Part shown: piece after piece, positions 14,487 through 42,790 of the stretch
Layout: the number at the start of each line of letters is the position of its first letter
Position numbering within the stretch: the first letter of the stretch is position 1
NCBI GenBank assembly: GCA_901457705.2
Contig: LR590083.2
Span: forward strand, 2,480,597 to 2,544,596
Length of the DNA stretch: 64,000 nt
Source of the DNA: Beijerinckiaceae bacterium RH AL1
Lineage (GTDB): Bacteria > Pseudomonadota > Alphaproteobacteria > Rhizobiales > Beijerinckiaceae
Direction of reading: 5' to 3'
Made by a program: the position numbers and the translations under genes
The notes under the pieces: generated by a model
What the model was told of the DNA's origin: nothing
The model's input: only the letters and a program-made list of their open reading frames with translations
The model's database searches: none

Positions 14487-15509
14487 ATGCAGCCTGCCCT
14501 TGTCCTGCCGTTCGCCGGCGCCCTTCCCGATTTCGGCGGCCCGATCGCCTTCGCGGGGCCGCGCTCCGCCGTGCTCGGGCGCGCGACGATCGGAGCCGGC
14601 GCCTGGCTCGGCGAGGACAGCGTGGTGCGCGCCGACGGCGAGCGCGTGACGATCGGCGCCAACGTGCACCTCGGTCATCGCACGACGGTGCACATCGTGC
14701 ACGACACGACGCCCTGCCTCATCGGCGACAACGTGACCGTTGGCGCCAACGCCTGCGTCCACGCCTGCACCGTGGGCGACAACTGCGTCATCGAGGACGA
14801 CGTCGTGCTCCTCGACGAGGCGACCGTCGGATCAAACGTGGTGATCGAGAAGGGCTCGACCGTCTTCCCGCGCAAGCGGCTCGATGCCGGCTGGCTCTAT
14901 CGCGGCAGCCCGGCCAAGCCGGCGCGCGAGCTGTGGGCCGGCGAGCTCGCACGGCGCGCCGCGAGCGTGCGCGCGCAGCAGGGCAGCGAGCGGGCGCTGA
15001 CGCCGACCGCGCAGGACTTCGGCCCCGCCGTCTTCCTCGCGCACACGGCGCAGCGCGCCGGGCGGCTGATCTGCGCGCCGGGCTCGAGCCTGTTCTTCGG
15101 CTGCGTCGCCGACGCCGGCCTCGGCTCGATCTACATCGGCGAGAACACCAACGTGCAGGACAACACGGTGATGCGCGCCGGCACGGGCGAGATCGTCATC
15201 GGTCGCGACACGACGGTCGGCCACAACGTGCGCATGGGACCGGCGCGGGTCGGCGATCTGTCGCTCATCGGCATCGGCGCCGTGCTGGCAGAGGACACGT
15301 GGGTCAAGGACGACGTGCTGCTCGCCGCCGGCGCGCACACGACGCCGGGCCAGATGCTCGAGTCGGGCTGGCTCTACGGCGGTCGCCCAGCGGCGCAGAT
15401 GTCGCGCCTCGATGAGGCGCGACGCGAGATGATGCGCGTCAACATCACGCACTATCTCGGCTATTCGCAGAAGTTCCGGGCCATCCAGGCCGAGCGGCTC
15501 GGAAGCTAA
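14487..15509 (+). CDS. Tandem left-handed beta-helix protein, gamma-carbonic-anhydrase-like (two domains)
   Basis: The 340 residues consist of two successive hexapeptide-repeat domains, each like PaaY/YrdA/gamma-carbonic anhydrase: residues ~20-150 (RVTIGANVHLGHRTTVH, IGDNVTVGANACVHACTVGD, ending GWLYRGSPAK) and ~190-320 (IYIGENTNVQDNTVM, TTVGHNVRMGPARVGD, ending GWLYGGRPAAQ). Relative to the three zinc-binding histidines of the family, domain 1 keeps the first and third (H69, H92; the middle is A87) and domain 2 keeps only the middle one (H246; R230 and G251 replace the others). It may be a CO2-hydrating enzyme, an acyltransferase or a structural protein. Confidence 0.82.
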   Translation: MQPALVLPFAGALPDFGGPIAFAGPRSAVLGRATIGAGAWLGEDSVVRADGERVTIGANVHLGHRTTVHIVHDTTPCLIGDNVTVGANACVHACTVGDNCVIEDDVVLLDEATVGSNVVIEKGSTVFPRKRLDAGWLYRGSPAKPARELWAGELARRAASVRAQQGSERALTPTAQDFGPAVFLAHTAQRAGRLICAPGSSLFFGCVADAGLGSIYIGENTNVQDNTVMRAGTGEIVIGRDTTVGHNVRMGPARVGDLSLIGIGAVLAEDTWVKDDVLLAAGAHTTPGQMLESGWLYGGRPAAQMSRLDEARREMMRVNITHYLGYSQKFRAIQAERLGS

Positions 15510-34750: not shown

Positions 34751-37700
34751 TCAATAGACGTCGCGCAGATAGCGCTTGTCGGCCGCGAGCGCCTTGACGT
34801 AGGCGGCGGCGCGCTCCTCGTCGAGGCGCCCGTGGTCGCGGGCGACCGTGACCAGCGCGCGCTCGACGTCCTTGGCCATGCGCTCGGCATCGCCGCAGAC
34901 GTAGAAGTAGGCGCCCGCCTCGAGCCACGCCCAGAGATCGGCGCCGCGCTCGATCATCTTGTCCTGCACGTAGACCTTGTGCGCCTGGTCGCGCGAGAAG
35001 GCGAGGCTCAGCTCGGTGAGGTGGCCGTCGTCGCGCATCGCGACGAGCTCGTCGCGATAGTAGAAGTCGCTCGCCTCGTGCTGCTCGCCGAAGAACAGCC
35101 AGTTGCGCCCCGTGGCGCCGGTGACGCGACGCTCGTGCAGGAAGCCGCGGAACGGCGCGACGCCGGTGCCCGGCCCGATCATGATGACGGCGGCGTCGGG
35201 GTCGGCCGGCAGGTGGAAGTGCGACGAAGGCTGGATGAAGATCGGCACGTCGCCGTCGCCGGCGCGGTCGGCGAGGAAGGTCGAGCACGTGCCCGTGCGC
35301 CTGCGCGCGCCGTAGCGCACGGCCGAGACGGTGAGGTGCACCTCGTCCGCGTGCGCCTTGGGGCTCGAGGAGATCGAGTAGAGCCGCGGCTGCATCTTCG
35401 GCAGGCGCGCGACGAGCTCGTCGGCCTCCGTACGGATCGGAAAGGCCTCGAGCACGTCGACGAGCTGACGGCCCCACAGGAAATCTTTCAGCTCGCGCTT
35501 GCGGTCGTCGCCGATGAGGCTGGTCAGCTCGGAGCTGCCGCTGCGCTCGGCGATGAAGCGCAGCATGTCGCGCGACGGCTTGGTCAGCTCGACCTCGTGC
35601 GTTAGCGCCTGGCCGAGTGGCATCTCGCCCTTGCCCTTGATCGTGACGGGGGCCGCTGCGTCGAGACCCACAAGCTCGATCGTCTCGGCGACCGTCGCCT
35701 CGCAGTTGCGCGGCCAGACGCCGAGCGCATCGCCCGGCTGGTACGATAGGCCGGAGCCGGCGAGCGAGAAGCGGAAGAAGCGCGTGTCCTTGCCCGCGCC
35801 CTCGCCGTTGAGCCTGACGTTGCCGACGAGCTTGGCGCGGAACGGATTGGTCTTGCTCCAACCGGTCGGCGCGGCCGCCATGCCGGCTTTGGCTTGGACC
35901 GCCGGCTGCGCCACGGCGTTCGGCTTGCTGGCGCCGCCGGCCTTGGCGAACAGCGGCGCCAGCGCCTCGATCCAGGCGGCCGACTGGGTCTCGTAGTCCG
36001 GATCGCAATCGATGCGATGCTGCAGGCGCCGCGCGCCCAGCTCTGTCAGCCGGGCGTCGAGGTTCTTGCCGTGGTTGCAGAACTGATCGTAGGAGGGGTC
36101 GCCGAGCGCGCAGATGGCGTAGCTCAGATGCTCGAGGCGCGGCGCCGCATCCGAGCGCAAGAAGTCCCAGAAGGCCTTGCCGTTGTCGGGCGGATCGCCG
36201 TCGCCGTAGGTCGACGAGACGAAGACCAGCTGCGCCTCGCCGCCGAGCCGGCCTGTGTCGTAGTCGTCCATGGCGAGCGCCTGCGCTGGCCGCCCCGCGC
36301 CATTGAGTGTGGTCGCAATCCCCTCGGCGAGGGTCTCGGCGTTGCCGGTCTGCGAGGCGTAGAGCACCGTGATCGGTTTTGCGGCGGTCTCCGGCCGCGG
36401 CGCGGCCGCACCGTCGCTGCCGGGGGCGCCCGTGCGGCTGTACATGCCGGCGAGAACGCCATCGAGCCAGAGCCGCGTGTTCGGCGCCACCGGCGCGTCG
36501 GGCGGCAGCACCGGCGTCGAGCCGAGCGCCTCGGTCGAGCGCAGCCCCGACATGAAGCCGGAGAGATAGACGGTCTCCGCCTCCGTGAACGAGGGCGGCT
36601 CGATCGGCCTCAGGTTGATCGCCGAGGCGAAGATGCTCGCCATCGCGTCGACCTTTGGCCGCGTCGCAGTCTTGACGCCGCCGGCCTCGACGGTTTGGGG
36701 TGCAACGGCCTGCGACGCCCGCGCCTCGCTGCCCGGCGCCGTGACGTGAGCCGCGCTCGACGCCGGCCCGACGCGCTCCAGCGCTACCGCACAATACTTG
36801 AACGCCGCCTGCTTCGAGATCGGGTCGCAGGCGTCGGTCGTCACCGCGTTGATCGCGAGATTGTCGCCGTAGCTGTCGTTCCAGTGGAACGGCGCGAAGC
36901 AGGCGCCGCGCTGCACGCGCGCCGTGAGGCGCGCCGGCAGGATCGCCTTGCCCCGCCGCGAGCGCACCTCGACCTCGTCCTTCTCCTTGATCCCGGCCGC
37001 CCTCGCATCGTCCGGGTGGATCTCGATGAAGGGGCCAGGGTTCAGCTTGTTCAGCTGCGGCACCTTCCCGGTCTTGGTCAGCGTGTGCCACTGGTGCGGC
37101 AGCCGCCCCGTGTTCAGGATGAACGGATAGGCCTCGTCCGGATACTCCGCCTGCTCGACGACGGGCCGCGCGAAGAACTGCGCCTTGCCGCTCGGCGTCG
37201 GGAACGCCAGCCGCGGCCGCGCGCCATCCCGTTCCTCGCGCAGCTTCTGGCTGACGCCATCGTTGAGATAGCGCGTCGGGTTGCGATCTTCGGCCGTCTC
37301 CGGCGGGCAAGGCCATTGCAGCGGCGTCCTGCGCAGCCGCGCATGCGAGGCGCCGCGGATGTCGTAGCCGGTCTTCGGGTTCCAGAACCGCTTGATCTCG
37401 TCGAAGACGTCGCTCGACGACGCATAGGCGAACGCGTCCTCGTAGCCCATGGCGCAGGCCACCTTGGCGATGATCTGCCAGTCCGGCATCGCCTCGCCCG
37501 GCGGCTCCACCGCCTTCTCCATCAGCGTGAGGTTGCGCTCGGAATTGACCATCACGCCCGTCGCCTCGGCCCACAGCGCGCCGGGCAGCAGGATGTCGGC
37601 GTAGATGTTCGTCTCGTTGTCCTGGTAGGCGTCCTGCGTGATGACGAGCTCGGCCGCCTTCAGCCCGGCGATGGCGTTCGCGCGGTTGGGCGTCGTCGCG

Positions 37701-38935
37701 ACCGGATTGGTGCAGATCACCCACACGGCCTTGATGTCGCCGGCCTGCATCGCCTTGTACATGCCGGCCGCGTCGACGCCTGGCTCCGGCCGGATGGTGC
37801 CCGGCGCCAGGCCCCACACCTCCTCGGTAAAGCGCCGCTCGTCGTCACAGGCGACGGAGCGCTGGCCCGGCAGGCCGTAGCCGAGATAGCCCATCTCGCG
37901 GCCGCCCATCGCGTTCGGCTGGCCGGTGAGCGAGAACGGGCCGCTGCCCGGGCGACAGATCGCGCCGGTCGCGAGATGCAGGTTGCAGAGCGCGTTGGTG
38001 TTCCAGGTGCCGCTGATCGACTGGCTGAGCCCCATCGTCCAGCAGCTCATCCAGTCCTTCGCCTCGCCGATCCAGGTTGCGGCCTTGCGCAGGTCCGCCT
38101 CGGCGATGCCGCAGGTCTCGGCGACCGCCTCCGGCGTGTAGGCGGCGAGGAAGGCCGGCATCTGCGCCCAGCCCTCGGTGAACTCGTCCATGAAGTCGCG
38201 GTCGATGCGGCCTGCCGCGACGAGCAGGTGCAGGATGCCGTTGAAGAGCGCGATGTCGGTGCCGGGCGTCACCTGCAGGAAGAGGTCGGCCGCCTCCGCC
38301 GTCGCGGTGCGACGCGGATCGACGACGATCAGCCTGGCGCCGGCGCTCTTCATCCGGTCCTTCATCCGCAGGAAGAGGATCGGATGGCAGTCCGCCATGT
38401 TCGAGCCGGCGATGAAGAACAGGTCGGCCTTGTCGAAGTCCTGGTAGGACCCGGGCGGTCCGTCGGCGCCGAGCGACAGCTTGTAGCCGGAGGCCGCCGA
38501 GGCCATGCAGTATCGCGAGTTCGACTCGATATTGTTGGTGCCGATGAAGCCCTTGGCGAGCTTGTTCGCGAGATACTGCGCCTCCATCGACATCTGCCCG
38601 GAGACGTAGAGCGCCACCGCATCCGGCCCGTGCGTGTCGATGATCGCGCGCAGCCGCCGCGCGGCCTCGGCAATGGCGACGTCCATCCCCACCGGCACCT
38701 GGTCGGCCTTGCGGTCGGCGCGCACGGAGGCGCGCTCCATGCGTCCGGTGCCGGCGATGATCTTCGCCGCCGTCGAGCCCTTGGTGCAGAGCCGCCCGAA
38801 GTTGGTCGGATGGTCCTTGTCGCCCGAGAGCTTGGTGACCTTGCCGCCCTCGACCTGCAGCACCATCCCGCAGCCCACCCCACAGTAGGGGCAGGCCGTC
38901 TTCACCGTGCGGACGTCGGTGGTTTGGGCACCCAC
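34751..38935 (-). CDS. Assimilatory nitrate reductase fused to CysJ-type flavoprotein reductase
   Basis: A 1394-residue fusion. Residues 1-~710: bis-MGD molybdoenzyme with an N-terminal 4Fe-4S motif ([10 protein letters not shown]...GRLCTKG) and substrate-channel segments as in NasA/NarB. Residues ~780-835: linker with two copies of a YLxGFxxG-like helix. Residues ~855-1000: flavodoxin ([11 protein letters not shown]). Then an FAD-binding domain ([11 protein letters not shown]) and an NADPH domain ([28 protein letters not shown]) ending YLRDVY. It should reduce nitrate to nitrite with electrons from NADPH. The GTG at 38935 lies 8 bp after the previous stop; the open frame beyond is shadow. 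Database entries name this type a bifunctional nitrate reductase/sulfite reductase flavoprotein. It is the last gene of the nirA operon. Confidence 0.93.
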
Positions 38936-38943
38936 GGCCGGCC

Positions 38944-40536
38944 TCAGTACACGTCGGCCTGGTAGCGCCCGTTCTTCTTCAGCGCGGCGATGAAGCTCTT
39001 CGCCGACGCCTCGTCCTGTCCGCTCTCCCTGGCGACGATCTCGGTCAGCGCCTTCTCGACGTCGGACGCCATCCGCTTGGCATCGCCGCAGATGTAGAAA
39101 TGCGCGCCGCGCTCGAGCCAGGACCACACCTCCTTGCCGTCCTCGCGCATCTTGTCCTGGACATAGGTCTTCTTCTCGCCGTCGCGCGACCAGGCCAGGG
39201 ACAGCTTCGAGAGCGTGCCGTCCTGCATGAAGCCGTCGATCTCGTCCTCGTAGAAGAAGTCGGCCGCGCGCCGCTGGTGGCCGTAGAACAGCCAGGCGCC
39301 GCCCTTCGCCGCAGCGCTCTTGCGATCGTGCAAAAAGGCGCGGAACGGCGCGACGCCGGTGCCGGGGCCGACCATGATGATCGGCACGTCGGTCGACTTC
39401 GGGAGGCCGAAGTTGTGCGCCTTCTGCACGTAGGCCTTGATCTTCGAGCCGACCGGCAGCCGCTCGGCGAGCCACGACGAGGCGACGCCGCGGCGCGTGC
39501 GCTCGCCGACGATGTAGCGCACGTGATCGACGGTGAGCGAGACGCGGCCCGGCGTCGCGTTATGCGACGAAGAGATCGAGTAGAGTCGCGGCTGCAACGG
39601 GTCGAGCGCCTCGATGAACGCCTCCGGATCGGGTCGCAGGCCCGGGAACTTCTCGAGCACCGCGAGCACGTCGAGGGTGTGGACGTCGCCGTCCGGGTCC
39701 TCGCCCTTGGCGAGCAGCTTCGCCTTGGCACGGCGCTCGCCGCCGGTGATGTAGGAGATCAGCTCGAAGAGCGCGTCCGGCGCCAGGCCGAGCGAGACCT
39801 CGGTTCTCAGGTAGTCGGCGAAGCTCTTGTCGCCGATCGGGAAGTCGCGCGGCGCGCCGATCGCCGCGATCACACGGTCGACGAGCTCCGGGTCGTTCTC
39901 GGGAAACAGGCCGAAGGCGTCGCCGACCGTATACTCGATGCCGGCGGCCGTGAGATCGATGTCGATGTGGAAGGTCGACTTTTCCGAGTCCGCCTTGTTG
40001 AGCCGCCGACGGCCCTCGAACACCACGTCGACCGGCAGGGCGCGCGAGTAGCCCGGCGCCTCCGCGCTCGCGGCGGGCGCCGCCTTGGCCTCGACCTTCG
40101 CGTCACCCGCCCCGGCGGGCGCCTCGCCGCCGAGCTCGGCCGCGAGCTCCTTCACCTTGCGCGCGGTCTCCTTGCCGCCCGGCACGCAGAGATTGAGCCG
40201 CGCCTCCTCACCGTCGGCGATGGCCTTCGAGTACTTGTCGCAATCGTAGCCGCACTGGCCGCAATCCTGCTGCGCCATCGCGGCCATGAGCCGGCGCTGG
40301 ATCGGCTTGCCCTCGGCGAGGCTCATGCGCTCGTCGATCGGCATCGCCGGGTCGTGCCACGGCGCGTCGTCGTCCTCGACGCCGGCCTCGGCGCCCGAGA
40401 TCGGCTGCGCGTCGCCGGGCTGCGGCGCGAGGAAGCCGGCGAAGAAGCCGTTGAGCCAGGCGCGCTGCTCCTCGGAGAACGGCGCGTTCTCCGGGATGAA
40501 CGGCGCGATCGTGGGCGTCGGAGCCTGGAACGTCAT
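38944..40536 (-). CDS. Fe-S flavoreductase, CysJ-like without flavodoxin domain
   Basis: A 530-residue protein annotated in relatives as sulfite reductase flavoprotein alpha subunit. The N-terminus has [18 protein letters not shown]. Residues 92-117 carry a Fe-S motif ([12 protein letters not shown]...NLCVPGG) in place of the flavodoxin domain of true CysJ. FAD-binding ([11 protein letters not shown]) and NAD(P)H-binding domains ([28 protein letters not shown]) follow, ending YQADVY. It probably feeds NADPH electrons to the NirA reductase encoded just upstream. The ATG overlaps the nirA stop (ATGA). The open frame continues upstream into nirA, but that is shadow. Confidence 0.92.
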
Positions 40537-42287
40537 GCTTTCACCTCGGCCGCCATGGCCTTCAAGGTTTCGATCTCCTTGCCTTGCGCGAAAGCCAGGA
40601 AAGACTCGTTGGGGTCGGAACGATTGGCGAGATAGGCCTTGAGCAGCCGCTCGACATGCGCGGGGCAGTCCTCGGCCTTCACGGCGGGGTAGATTTCGCG
40701 GCCGATCGACGGCGTCGTCGAGAAGCCGCCGCCGACGTGGATGTCGTAGCCGTCGACCGTGTCGCCGTCGTCGTTGACCGGCACGCGGGCGCCGATCAGC
40801 CCGATGTCGCCGATGTAGTGCTGGGCGCAGGAGTTGTGGCAGCCGGTGAGATGGATGTTGATCGGCTGGTCGAGCTTGACGCGCGGCTCGCACCAGGCGG
40901 CGATCGCCTGGGCGTTGAGCTTCGTCGGCGCGGCGGCGAACTTGCAGCCCTGCGAGCCCGTGCAGGCGACGAGGCCGGCGCGGATCGGCGTCGCCTGCCA
41001 GGCGAGCCCCGTCGACTCGATGCGCGCCTTCGCCTTGTCGAGCTTGTCGTCCGGGATGCCGGAGATCAGAAGGTTCTGCCAGACGGTGAGGCGGATGTCG
41101 CCGTCGCCGAGCTCGCGCGCGATGGCGGCGAGCTCGTGCATCTGCTCGCAATCCATCTTGCCCACCGGCAGCACCACGCCGATGTAGTTGAGCCCCGCCT
41201 GCTTCTGCGCGTGCACGCCGACATGCGCGTGGCGGTCCTGCGCCGGGCGCGGCGCGACGTGCTCGGCCGCGACCCGCGGCAGCTTCCAGCCGAGCTTGTC
41301 CTCCACCGCGACGAGGAATGTGTCGAAGCCCCAGTCGTCGAGCACGTACTTGAGCCGCGCCTTGTTGCGGTCGGTGCGGTTTCCCGAATCGATGAAGACG
41401 CGGACGATCGCATCCGCCACCTTGGTCGCGTCGCGGGGCTTCACCACCACGCCGGTGTCGCGCGCGAGGTCCTTGTGGCCGGTGATGCCGCCGAGCACGA
41501 GGCGGAACCAGATCCCCGGCTCGACGCCCGCGCCCTCCTTCACCTCCACGGCCTGGAAGCCGATGTCGTTGGTGTCCTCCAGCGTCGGGATCGGGCCGCC
41601 GCCGTCGAAGGCGACGTTGAACTTGCGCGGCAGCCCGTACATCACCCGGTTGTTGAGGATGTGGAAGTGCCACGCCTTGGCATAGGGCCGCGTGTCGAGG
41701 AGCTCGCCCCGCGCGATGCCGGCGGTTGCGTCGCCCGTCACGTTGCGGATGTTGTCGGAGCCCGAGCCGCGCGAGCAGAGCCCGAGGTCGATCACCTGCT
41801 CGATGACGTCGATCGCGTGCCGCGCGGGGATCTCGCGCAGCTGCAGGTTGGCGCGCGTCGTCACGTGCGAATAGCCGCCGGCGCAGCGCGCCGCGAGGTC
41901 GGCCATTGCCGCGAACTGCCAGTGGTTGAGGATGCCGTTATGGATTCTCATGCGCAGCATGTAGGCGTCCTGCGCCGGCGCGACGTAGAACAGCCCGTAG
42001 TAGCGCCAGCGGAAGTTGTCCGGCGGCTTGGGGAACTCGTCGTTCTCCGCCTGCGCCTTCAGGCGATGGTAGGCGTCGAAGGGGTGCTCCTCGCGCTTCC
42101 ACTTCTCCTGGTCGGCGAGCTTCTTGCCCGCCGCCTCGGCCTTGGTCATCGCAGCGAGATGCGGCGCGTCGGGGCCGCTCGGCGCCGACGGTCCGCCGCC
42201 GGCCGCCGGCTTGAGGCGGCCGACCTGGATGCCCGAGGTAAATCCCTCGAGGTAACGCTTCTGCTCGGCCGTAAATTCACCGCCCAT
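40533..42287 (-). CDS. nirA: NirA-type siroheme nitrite (or sulfite) reductase
   Basis: A 584-residue one-subunit siroheme/4Fe-4S reductase. Ligand cysteines are C442 and C448 (ACTGSQGCKF) and C483 and C487 (TGCHNSCAQHYIGDIGLIG); siroheme-contacting HVTTRANLQLREI is present. The N-terminus has EFTAEQKRYLEGFTSGIQ. It reduces nitrite to ammonium (sulfite to sulfide in related enzymes) with six electrons; the adjacent nitrate reductase and nitrogen-type leader favour nitrite. GAAGGG precedes the ATG at 42287. It is the first gene of a three-gene operon with overlapping stops and starts, behind a structured leader. Confidence 0.93.
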   Translation of the reverse strand: MGGEFTAEQKRYLEGFTSGIQVGRLKPAAGGGPSAPSGPDAPHLAAMTKAEAAGKKLADQEKWKREEHPFDAYHRLKAQAENDEFPKPPDNFRWRYYGLFYVAPAQDAYMLRMRIHNGILNHWQFAAMADLAARCAGGYSHVTTRANLQLREIPARHAIDVIEQVIDLGLCSRGSGSDNIRNVTGDATAGIARGELLDTRPYAKAWHFHILNNRVMYGLPRKFNVAFDGGGPIPTLEDTNDIGFQAVEVKEGAGVEPGIWFRLVLGGITGHKDLARDTGVVVKPRDATKVADAIVRVFIDSGNRTDRNKARLKYVLDDWGFDTFLVAVEDKLGWKLPRVAAEHVAPRPAQDRHAHVGVHAQKQAGLNYIGVVLPVGKMDCEQMHELAAIARELGDGDIRLTVWQNLLISGIPDDKLDKAKARIESTGLAWQATPIRAGLVACTGSQGCKFAAAPTKLNAQAIAAWCEPRVKLDQPINIHLTGCHNSCAQHYIGDIGLIGARVPVNDDGDTVDGYDIHVGGGFSTTPSIGREIYPAVKAEDCPAHVERLLKAYLANRSDPNESFLAFAQGKEIETLKAMAAEVKA

Positions 42288-42317
42288 GGCAGCCCTTCGT
42301 TGCGAGGGCATGAGGAC

Positions 42318-42397
42318 AAAAGCTCGGGATCGCCATGCCCGCGCCAGTCCCGGAGGCCGGGGAGATCTGGCGAGGCGTCGTCGACAAGGTCCCGAGC
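42318..42397 (-). terminator. Terminator-like nested hairpin in the nirA leader
   Basis: On the minus strand GCTCGGGA (42397-42390) pairs perfectly with TCCCGAGC (42329-42322), which is followed by TTTT (42321-42318). The enclosed 60 nt contain nested arms CGCCAG/CTGGCG (42372-42367 with 42347-42342) and CCCGG/CCGGG. The T-run ends 30 bp before the nirA start. It is placed where a nitrogen-regulated antitermination system would have its terminator; the activity is inferred. Confidence 0.45.
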
Positions 42398-42428
42398 AAC
42401 CCCACACCTGGATTGATCGAAGCGCCGG

Positions 42429-42476
42429 CCGTGCGCCGTTGCACGGTCATGCGCCCGGACGTGCGCAGCATTGCGC
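42429..42476 (-). promoter_or_regulatory. ANTAR (NasT-type) dual hexaloop RNA motif in the nirA leader
   Basis: Two successive hairpins with six-base loops on the minus strand: GCGC-[AATGCT]-GCGC (42476-42463) and CCGTGC-[AACGGC]-GCACGG (42446-42429), separated by 16 nt. Both loops have A at position 1 and G at position 4, the rule for RNA targets of ANTAR antiterminators such as NasT/NasR. The first stem is short (4 bp), the second 6 bp. Placement between a sigma-54 promoter and a terminator-like fold before nirA strengthens the call. No nasS/nasT genes are in this window. Confidence 0.6.
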
Positions 42477-42494
42477 GAGCGAGCAGTTACGGTT

Positions 42495-42510
42495 GGCAAA
42501 AGGCGTGCCG
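42495..42510 (-). promoter_or_regulatory. Sigma-54 (RpoN) promoter for the nirA operon
   Basis: The minus strand reads C-GGCACG-CCTT-TTGC-C, matching the -24/-12 consensus TGGCACG-N4-TTGCW at every key position with exact GG-N10-GC spacing. The predicted start of transcription is near 42484, eight bases before the first ANTAR-type hairpin. Activation by NtrC would be expected; no clear NtrC site was found in 42511-42715, which otherwise shows no feature. Confidence 0.68.
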
Positions 42511-42715
42511 CAGTGCGGGAGCGCTCGGCGGAGCCGGGCCGGGGATCGGCGGTGATCGCCCGATGCCCGCGCGGGCGGCGCGAGGTGCCGCTTTGCTCGC
42601 CACTCTGCGCGCTACGGGGCGCCCGCGACGATCCTGTCGAGCGAGCCAAATTGTCGTTTGCATCGCGCCGCCATTTGCGCCATATGACGCCTCCACGGCG
42701 CTGCCGTGAACGGAT

Positions 42716-42790
42716 GCGGGTGTAGCTCAGGGGTAGAGCACAACCTTGCCAAGGTTGGGGTCGAGGGTTCGAATCCCTTCGCCCGCTCCA
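42716..42790 (+). tRNA. tRNA-Gly (anticodon GCC)
   Basis: A 75-nt cloverleaf: acceptor GCGGGTG pairs with CGCCCGC, D-arm GCTC-AGGGGTA-GAGC, anticodon arm CAACC-TTGCCAA-GGTTG with anticodon GCC, T-arm GAGGG-TTCGAAT-CCCTT, discriminator T and an encoded CCA. A T-rich run (TTTTATTTT, about 42800-42809) follows and may terminate transcription. The stretch from there to 43006 holds no other gene. Confidence 0.97.

Follow-up and report, generated by a model that had tools for sequence, protein, structure and literature searches.

For nasF of Klebsiella oxytoca, the parts of the literature cited here describe NasR, a one-component nitrate sensor with an ANTAR domain, together with Ntr control and two hexaloop hairpins (PMC5424462, PMC3369931). 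In alphaproteobacteria with NasT/NasS, ANTAR-type hairpins stand before assimilation genes, as for Paracoccus nasA and Bradyrhizobium nirA, and a NasT-interaction hairpin is reported for the latter in the cited section of its source (PMC6759348). As for dual-hairpin ANTAR targets in general, the sections used give limits of 2-25 nt for the linker and of at least 3 pairs for the stems (PMC8164766, PMC3369931); the eut leaders have linkers of 5-12 nt and a second hairpin, P2, that overlaps the terminator (PMC3369931, in part). Most actinobacterial ANTAR RNAs, as far as the cited text goes, need no terminator and act near the ribosome binding site on translation; their hairpins often cover this site, and repression is reported (PMC8164766).

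In the window, i.e., the whole stretch of 64,000 nucleotides that was analysed, the leader of nirA carries a real-looking ANTAR target, with an unusual cognate sensor and a layout that is not the textbook one. Like nasF, it combines two hexaloop hairpins with presumed Ntr control and an ANTAR protein, here P0002, as the proposed one-component nitrate sensor; the putative sensor part of P0002, however, consists of C-terminal PilJ domains, whereas that of NasR is an N-terminal NIT domain. The NasT/NasS systems share the ANTAR-type hairpins before assimilation genes, but P0002 carries PilJ domains and its gene adjoins narK. The dual hexaloop hairpins with A1 and G4 are also those of the EutV targets (eutP and others), although the nirA linker has 16 nt. 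No overlap of P2 with the 5' arm of an intrinsic terminator was found in the nirA leader, which sets it apart from nasF, from the eut leaders and from those leaders of the family that lie near other ANTAR genes; it differs from the actinobacterial RNAs in that some 140 nt separate the end of P2 from the ATG.

The nirA operon and its leader

Table 1. Features of the nirA operon and its leader, with positions in the window.
Feature	Position	Strand	Basis
Sigma54-type -24/-12 element, CGGCACGCCTTTTGC	42496..42510	-	pattern match; rpoN and ntrC in genome
P1 hexaloop hairpin, GCGC[AATGCT]GCGC, A1/G4, C-G closing, 4 pairs	42463..42476	-	motif scan, shuffles
Linker, 16 nt; GGGCGC (42456-42451) can pair with GCGCTT (42425-42420), extending P2	42447..42462	-	centroid fold
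P2 hexaloop hairpin, CCGTGC[AACGGC]GCACGG, A1/G4, C-G closing, 6 pairs	42429..42446	-	motif scan, shuffles
After-P2 segment, CCGGCGCTTCG, complementary to the nirA Shine-Dalgarno region	42418..42428	-	pairing energy, fold
TTTT hairpin, 76 nt, imperfect, with 8-bp GC-rich base, then TTTT; possible terminator, no P2 overlap	42318..42397	-	folds, shuffles
Candidate upstream ORF of 19 codons that overlaps the start of nirA	42277..42336	-	sequence only
Shine-Dalgarno region of nirA, CGAAGGGC	42292..42299	-	by reading
nirA, assimilatory nitrite reductase	40533..42287	-	NirA family NF007126
Sulfite-reductase alpha-type flavoprotein, second gene of operon	38944..40536	-	NF004859, over cut-off
NasC-like molybdoenzyme and CysJ-like flavoprotein in a single frame, third gene	34751..38902	-	NF047855 and TIGR01931, both below cut-offs

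On the minus strand of the window, the sigma54-type element is followed by P1, P2, the TTTT hairpin and the nirA ATG at 42287 (Table 1). Because nirA is succeeded by the flavoprotein gene and by the NasC-like/CysJ-like fusion, the operon appears, from the family assignments of its genes, to hold nitrate and nitrite reduction together; the fusion frame lies beside the second gene, which is another CysJ-like one. On the plus strand, a tRNA gene (42716-42787) sits immediately upstream of the promoter region of nirA. An Rfam search of the leader, up to E 10, returned no match, and scans of its surroundings found neither sigma70 promoters nor simple terminators (loops of 3-8). The fold energy of the whole leader is ordinary (z -1.04 and -1.15), so that the case for it rests on the motif.

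Regarding the promoter, the preliminary description had claimed a near-perfect -24/-12 element on this strand; at that place, CGGCACGCCTTTTGC deviates from TGGCACG-N4-TTGC in its first base only and agrees with GG-N10-GC, and GGCACG-N4-TTGC occurs once in the window, both strands counted. Taken alone, the element is weak evidence and proves little, since the window contains 17 matches to the full sigma54 pattern with up to two mismatches, where 25 would be expected, and GGCAC-N6-TGC is present in 97 of 5000 leader shuffles. The genome has both rpoN (TIGR02395, 421.7 bits) and ntrC (TIGR01818, 695.9 bits), each over the cut-off. An NtrC-type site with one mismatch lies at 42702-42718, and such sites number 47 in the window against 52 expected; the window scan gave no NtrC site above chance level upstream of the nirA promoter.

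As for the hairpins, both had been described with A1 and G4 in their hexaloops and were found in those positions; together with the 16-nt linker and stems of 4 and 6 pairs, they fit the dual-hairpin targets. In shuffles of the 233-nt leader (linker up to 30 nt), the observed pair score was reached in 2 of 5000 and any pair was seen in 6 of 5000; with the rule of a C-G closing pair, introduced after the relatives had been inspected, a pair was found in just 5 of 20000 shuffles, and chance is therefore an unlikely source. A1/G4 hexaloop pairs with a stem score of at least 10 each and a linker of up to 40 nt occur at two places in the window, the second being on the plus strand at 14959, where the loops close with G-C. 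In silico, P1 folds as GCGCA[AUGC]UGCGC: its A1 and U6 are able to pair, and the loop may close to a tetraloop. P2 can be extended, with 6 of 6 linker and after-P2 positions pairing in nirA; a lower stem of at least 6 was present in 26 of 296 control hairpins. P1 and P2 probably constitute a working ANTAR site.

The ANTAR protein P0002 and the narK leaders

The presence of an ANTAR protein in the genome, on which the earlier proposal depended, was confirmed by a single gene (PF03861, 69.5 bits). Its product, P0002, has the ANTAR match and PilJ in two stretches; the Pfam search up to E 1 gave PilJ and ANTAR only, with no NIT domain and no receiver. Plain NasT was rejected as the regulator, since the sole ANTAR gene found codes for the PilJ type (receiver-like-ANTAR-PilJ). 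The gene neighbours were read, from the ORFs of its own locus (L035), as narK and glyQ, and the same reading gave no nasS beside it. A search for nasS/nasT and ntrC had been proposed: ntrC is there, and so is an ANTAR gene, but the lineage's only one is not plain nasT.

The N-terminus of P0002 aligns with receiver domains by sequence and by predicted fold. Aligned with Rv1626, P0002 has Tyr52 at the position of the receiver's phosphate-accepting Asp, and this Tyr belongs to a Cys-Tyr that all orthologs share (6 of 6); because of this replacement, the N-terminus is read as a putative degenerate receiver. A sequence comparison of P0002 with the PDB gave Rv1626, EutV, NasR (4akk, 'nitrate regulatory protein') and, as a weak relative, AmiR; 6gcv, a chemotaxis transducer and presumably the nitrate sensor McpN, gave a chance-level match (E 0.23). 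Each of the PilJ parts has a box that contains G-x-x-R (NRAGQLRMLSQR and INVSGRQRML-Q), and both boxes are invariant among the orthologs (6 of 6); G-x-x-R is a nitrate-binding motif according to the cited part of the source (PMC8199190), and these boxes suggest that P0002 may combine ANTAR with a nitrate sensor domain. The predicted model (mean pLDDT 80.2, pTM 0.58) has EutV bound to RNA as its nearest structure, a further likeness to that system; among the 50 matches listed in a fold search with it, none was titled nitrate sensor, and the nitrate reading of PilJ is not backed by this model-based search by itself. In titles and abstract starts among the literature matches listed, with subscription journals mostly outside, no PilJ-ANTAR regulator was found. 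Within the family, 6 of 298 genomes have an ortholog at E <= 1e-40; they belong to two genera, and the own genome is one of them. Among the 397 of the order sample, the own genome alone has one. A contig scan with P0002 gave three loci, of which one is a full-length relative, in Beijerinckia sp. L45.

In all six genomes the P0002-ortholog gene is divergent from narK (G127 was judged by its start sequence; the own narK has 308.6 bits, with a cut-off of 311.7). The six narK leaders, from two genera, have the order sigma54 site, 10-12 nt, P1, linker of 20-26 nt, P2; 96.3% of 107 cells are paired, the extended-P2 helix is paired in 30 of 30 cells, and two pairs are changed on both sides. Of 500 shuffled controls, 1 reached the covariation score and 73 had as many doubly changed pairs, so that the covariation is modest. 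A covariance model built from the five relatives gave the own narK leader 50.8 bits, with the next hit at 24.6; two other own-genome hits above 20 bits, which by reading lie in a DnaB-like frame and just 3' of a flagellin-like frame, were taken as chance (6 loci were looked at among the other hits in this genome). Judged from these sequences, the narK leader appears to be the conserved target of the P0002 protein class. When folded freely, some of these leaders do not favour P1, which has a probability of 0.01 in G003, 0.41 in G127 and 0.46 in G000.

The P2 loop of the own narK leader (L035:8533-8623) is GCCGGA, with G at position 1, where the five relatives have retained A1; this loop offers a natural test of the A1 rule. 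By reading, the narK leaders L035, L066 and L067 contain short upstream ORFs of 24, 46 and 85 codons, whose start is at the place of the narK start in L070, L071 and L075; in L066, the stop of this ORF overlaps the narK ATG.

The hairpin pair in the family

A scan of 659,243 bases (some overlapping) gave 24 A1/G4 pairs with C-G closing in both hairpins; the bases are mostly ANTAR and nirA neighbourhoods, by which the true-positive count is biased and the low background less so. This count leaves aside eleven loci (L001, L002, L032, L074, L076-L079 and L114-L116), most of them repeats, and includes L004 and L069 as one place counted twice and L043/L047 as near-identical loci; the own narK leader is outside the 24 because its P2 loop has no A1. 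Eighteen pairs follow a sigma54 site, namely the nirA leader described here and 17 near ANTAR genes. The remaining six comprise three near ANTAR genes and three rows that correspond to two background places, one of which sits inside a nirA coding frame. The preliminary description had matched the order of elements to antitermination of nitrate-assimilation operons, and for the order this holds: throughout the family, leaders close to ANTAR genes likewise have a sigma54 site followed, mostly after 10-19 nt, by P1 and then P2.

Conservation of the loops in relatives, whose lack the preliminary description had named as a refutation, was not borne out at nirA: in the family, eight other nirA genes have a sigma54 site no farther than about 200 nt away (L003, L004, L009, L083, L085, L100, L129 and L130), five of them from genomes with a P0002 ortholog, and the pair is present in none of the eight; the module is conserved at narK instead. 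Given this result, the nirA hairpin target is, within the sample, private to its own genome. Over the 34 nirA loci scanned (700 nt upstream, L096 and L102 in part), 25 have no sigma54 match; where their upstream was read, these genes appear to lie inside an operon and carry little weight. L086 and L104, with a sigma54-like match only at about -680, were kept out of the eight, and L095 has a hairpin pair with a linker of 37 and no sigma54 site. In the three same-genus genomes, the pair is absent from two, and the contig of the third ends at nirA. L009, L129 and L130, with a sigma54 site about 200 nt before nirA, have long leaders with hairpins that by eye are of another kind, and their genomes also have a PilJ-ANTAR protein.

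Detection of the nirA leader by a narK-trained covariance model failed, the score of 10.4 bits being in the noise and ranking 4 of 17 within the window. The same model is a poor test across leader classes, because at E <= 1 it reached just 7 of the 12 leaders that lie near other ANTAR genes, with L058 likewise at 10.4 bits. Plain alignment of mixed leader classes misplaces P1.

Proposed function of the nirA leader

It is reasonably probable that the nirA leader is an ANTAR target that stands under nitrogen control and responds to nitrate. Under nitrogen shortage, sigma54 polymerase would start near 42484, presumably together with NtrC, and the first 55 nt of the RNA would fold into P1 and P2; a P0002 dimer would dock on both loops once its PilJ domains bind nitrate, and this bound state would permit expression of the nirA-flavoprotein-nasC operon. 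The output would most likely consist in lifting a block that lies between P2 and the start codon, either by read-through of the TTTT hairpin or by exposing the Shine-Dalgarno region paired with the after-P2 segment. If true, nitrogen shortage (sigma54/NtrC) and nitrate presence (PilJ-ANTAR sensor) would be tied into one promoter-leader unit.

A chance or decaying relic, with nirA under sigma54/NtrC alone as relatives would suggest, would suit the eight pair-less nirA genes and the low score of the narK-trained model, as well as the A1-less P2 of the own narK, by which the system may be drifting; however, the rarity of the pair in shuffles, the two background places in 659 kb and the retention of A1, G4 and the C-G closing pair in both nirA loops make this unlikely, and the leader is likely a real ANTAR target. 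As for its output, antitermination would require the TTTT hairpin to be an intrinsic terminator whose formation or effect is blocked by ANTAR binding to P1/P2. The 8-bp long-range stem GCTCGGGA/TCCCGAGC (42397-42390 and 42329-42322) with TTTT (42321-42318) ends 30 nt before the nirA ATG, as previously described, and a feature like it was found in 2 of 2000 shuffles; its stability (-41.2 kcal/mol over 76 nt) is similar to that of the longest of the three relatives' terminators compared (-39.8 kcal/mol, 72 nt). Moreover, of 13 leaders close to other ANTAR genes, which may be of NasT type (so named as their genomes have no P0002 ortholog), 12 reuse the loop or the 3' arm of P2 as the 5' arm of a terminator with a U tail; L044 is the exception by the rule applied, and the survey covered loci other than L046, which ends too soon. 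Against this, P2 and the TTTT hairpin share no bases and coexist in silico, a departure from the textbook that had been anticipated, and in prefix folding the hairpin has, once the U run is made, a probability of 0.69 with P1/P2 free and 0.89 with P1/P2 held; in the model, then, holding P1/P2 does not oppose it. The linker, the P1-P2 stretch, the 5' end and the after-P2 segment pair with its 5' arm no better than shuffles (632, 1654, 1716 and 765 of 2000), and the simple scan found no terminator. Nor is there a convincing P2-overlapping terminator in the six narK leaders that go with the same protein class: the two overlaps that came up, in G072 and G127, extend over 156 and 163 nt, and their tails, CTTCTTCG and TTCTTCGT, mix C and T. 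A textbook exchange between P2 and terminator, the other part of the supposed match to known antitermination, is thus not supported by the folds of the nirA leader, and antitermination of any form is a tentative possibility.

A switch at translation is an equally tentative possibility, in which the after-P2 segment would have two alternative partners: the linker, giving the extended P2 of the ANTAR-bound state, and the nirA Shine-Dalgarno region, giving the off state. Because this segment is complementary to the Shine-Dalgarno region in nirA (-14.6 kcal/mol, with 77 of 2000 shuffles as good) and in five of the six narK leaders (55 to 243 of 2000), control at the start of translation is suggested, and the fully paired extended-P2 helix of the narK leaders agrees with it. 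However, the narK leaders are related and their tests are not independent, G016 fails (1161 of 2000), and the pairing of the after-P2 segment with the linker is not significant in nirA (518 of 2000) or narK (152 to 1363 of 2000), a lower stem of at least 5 being present in 78 of 296 control hairpins. With P1/P2 held, the accessibility of the nirA Shine-Dalgarno region remains 0.24, and the effect on narK is mixed (up in four, the same in one, down in one); three of the six narK leaders have a short upstream ORF, instead of narK, as their first ORF. The full combination, in which a rare one-component nitrate sensor of two genera (degenerate receiver-ANTAR-PilJ-PilJ) would control sigma54-driven narK and nirA leaders by switching the after-P2 segment between extended P2 and Shine-Dalgarno region, with no P2/terminator exchange, as an ANTAR system that activates translation, is improbable as a whole.

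The nirA leader would be a natural case for asking whether ANTAR proteins can act with no competition against a terminator hairpin, and the narK leaders of the six genomes make this question directly testable. The candidate 19-codon upstream ORF of nirA starts within the TTTT hairpin.
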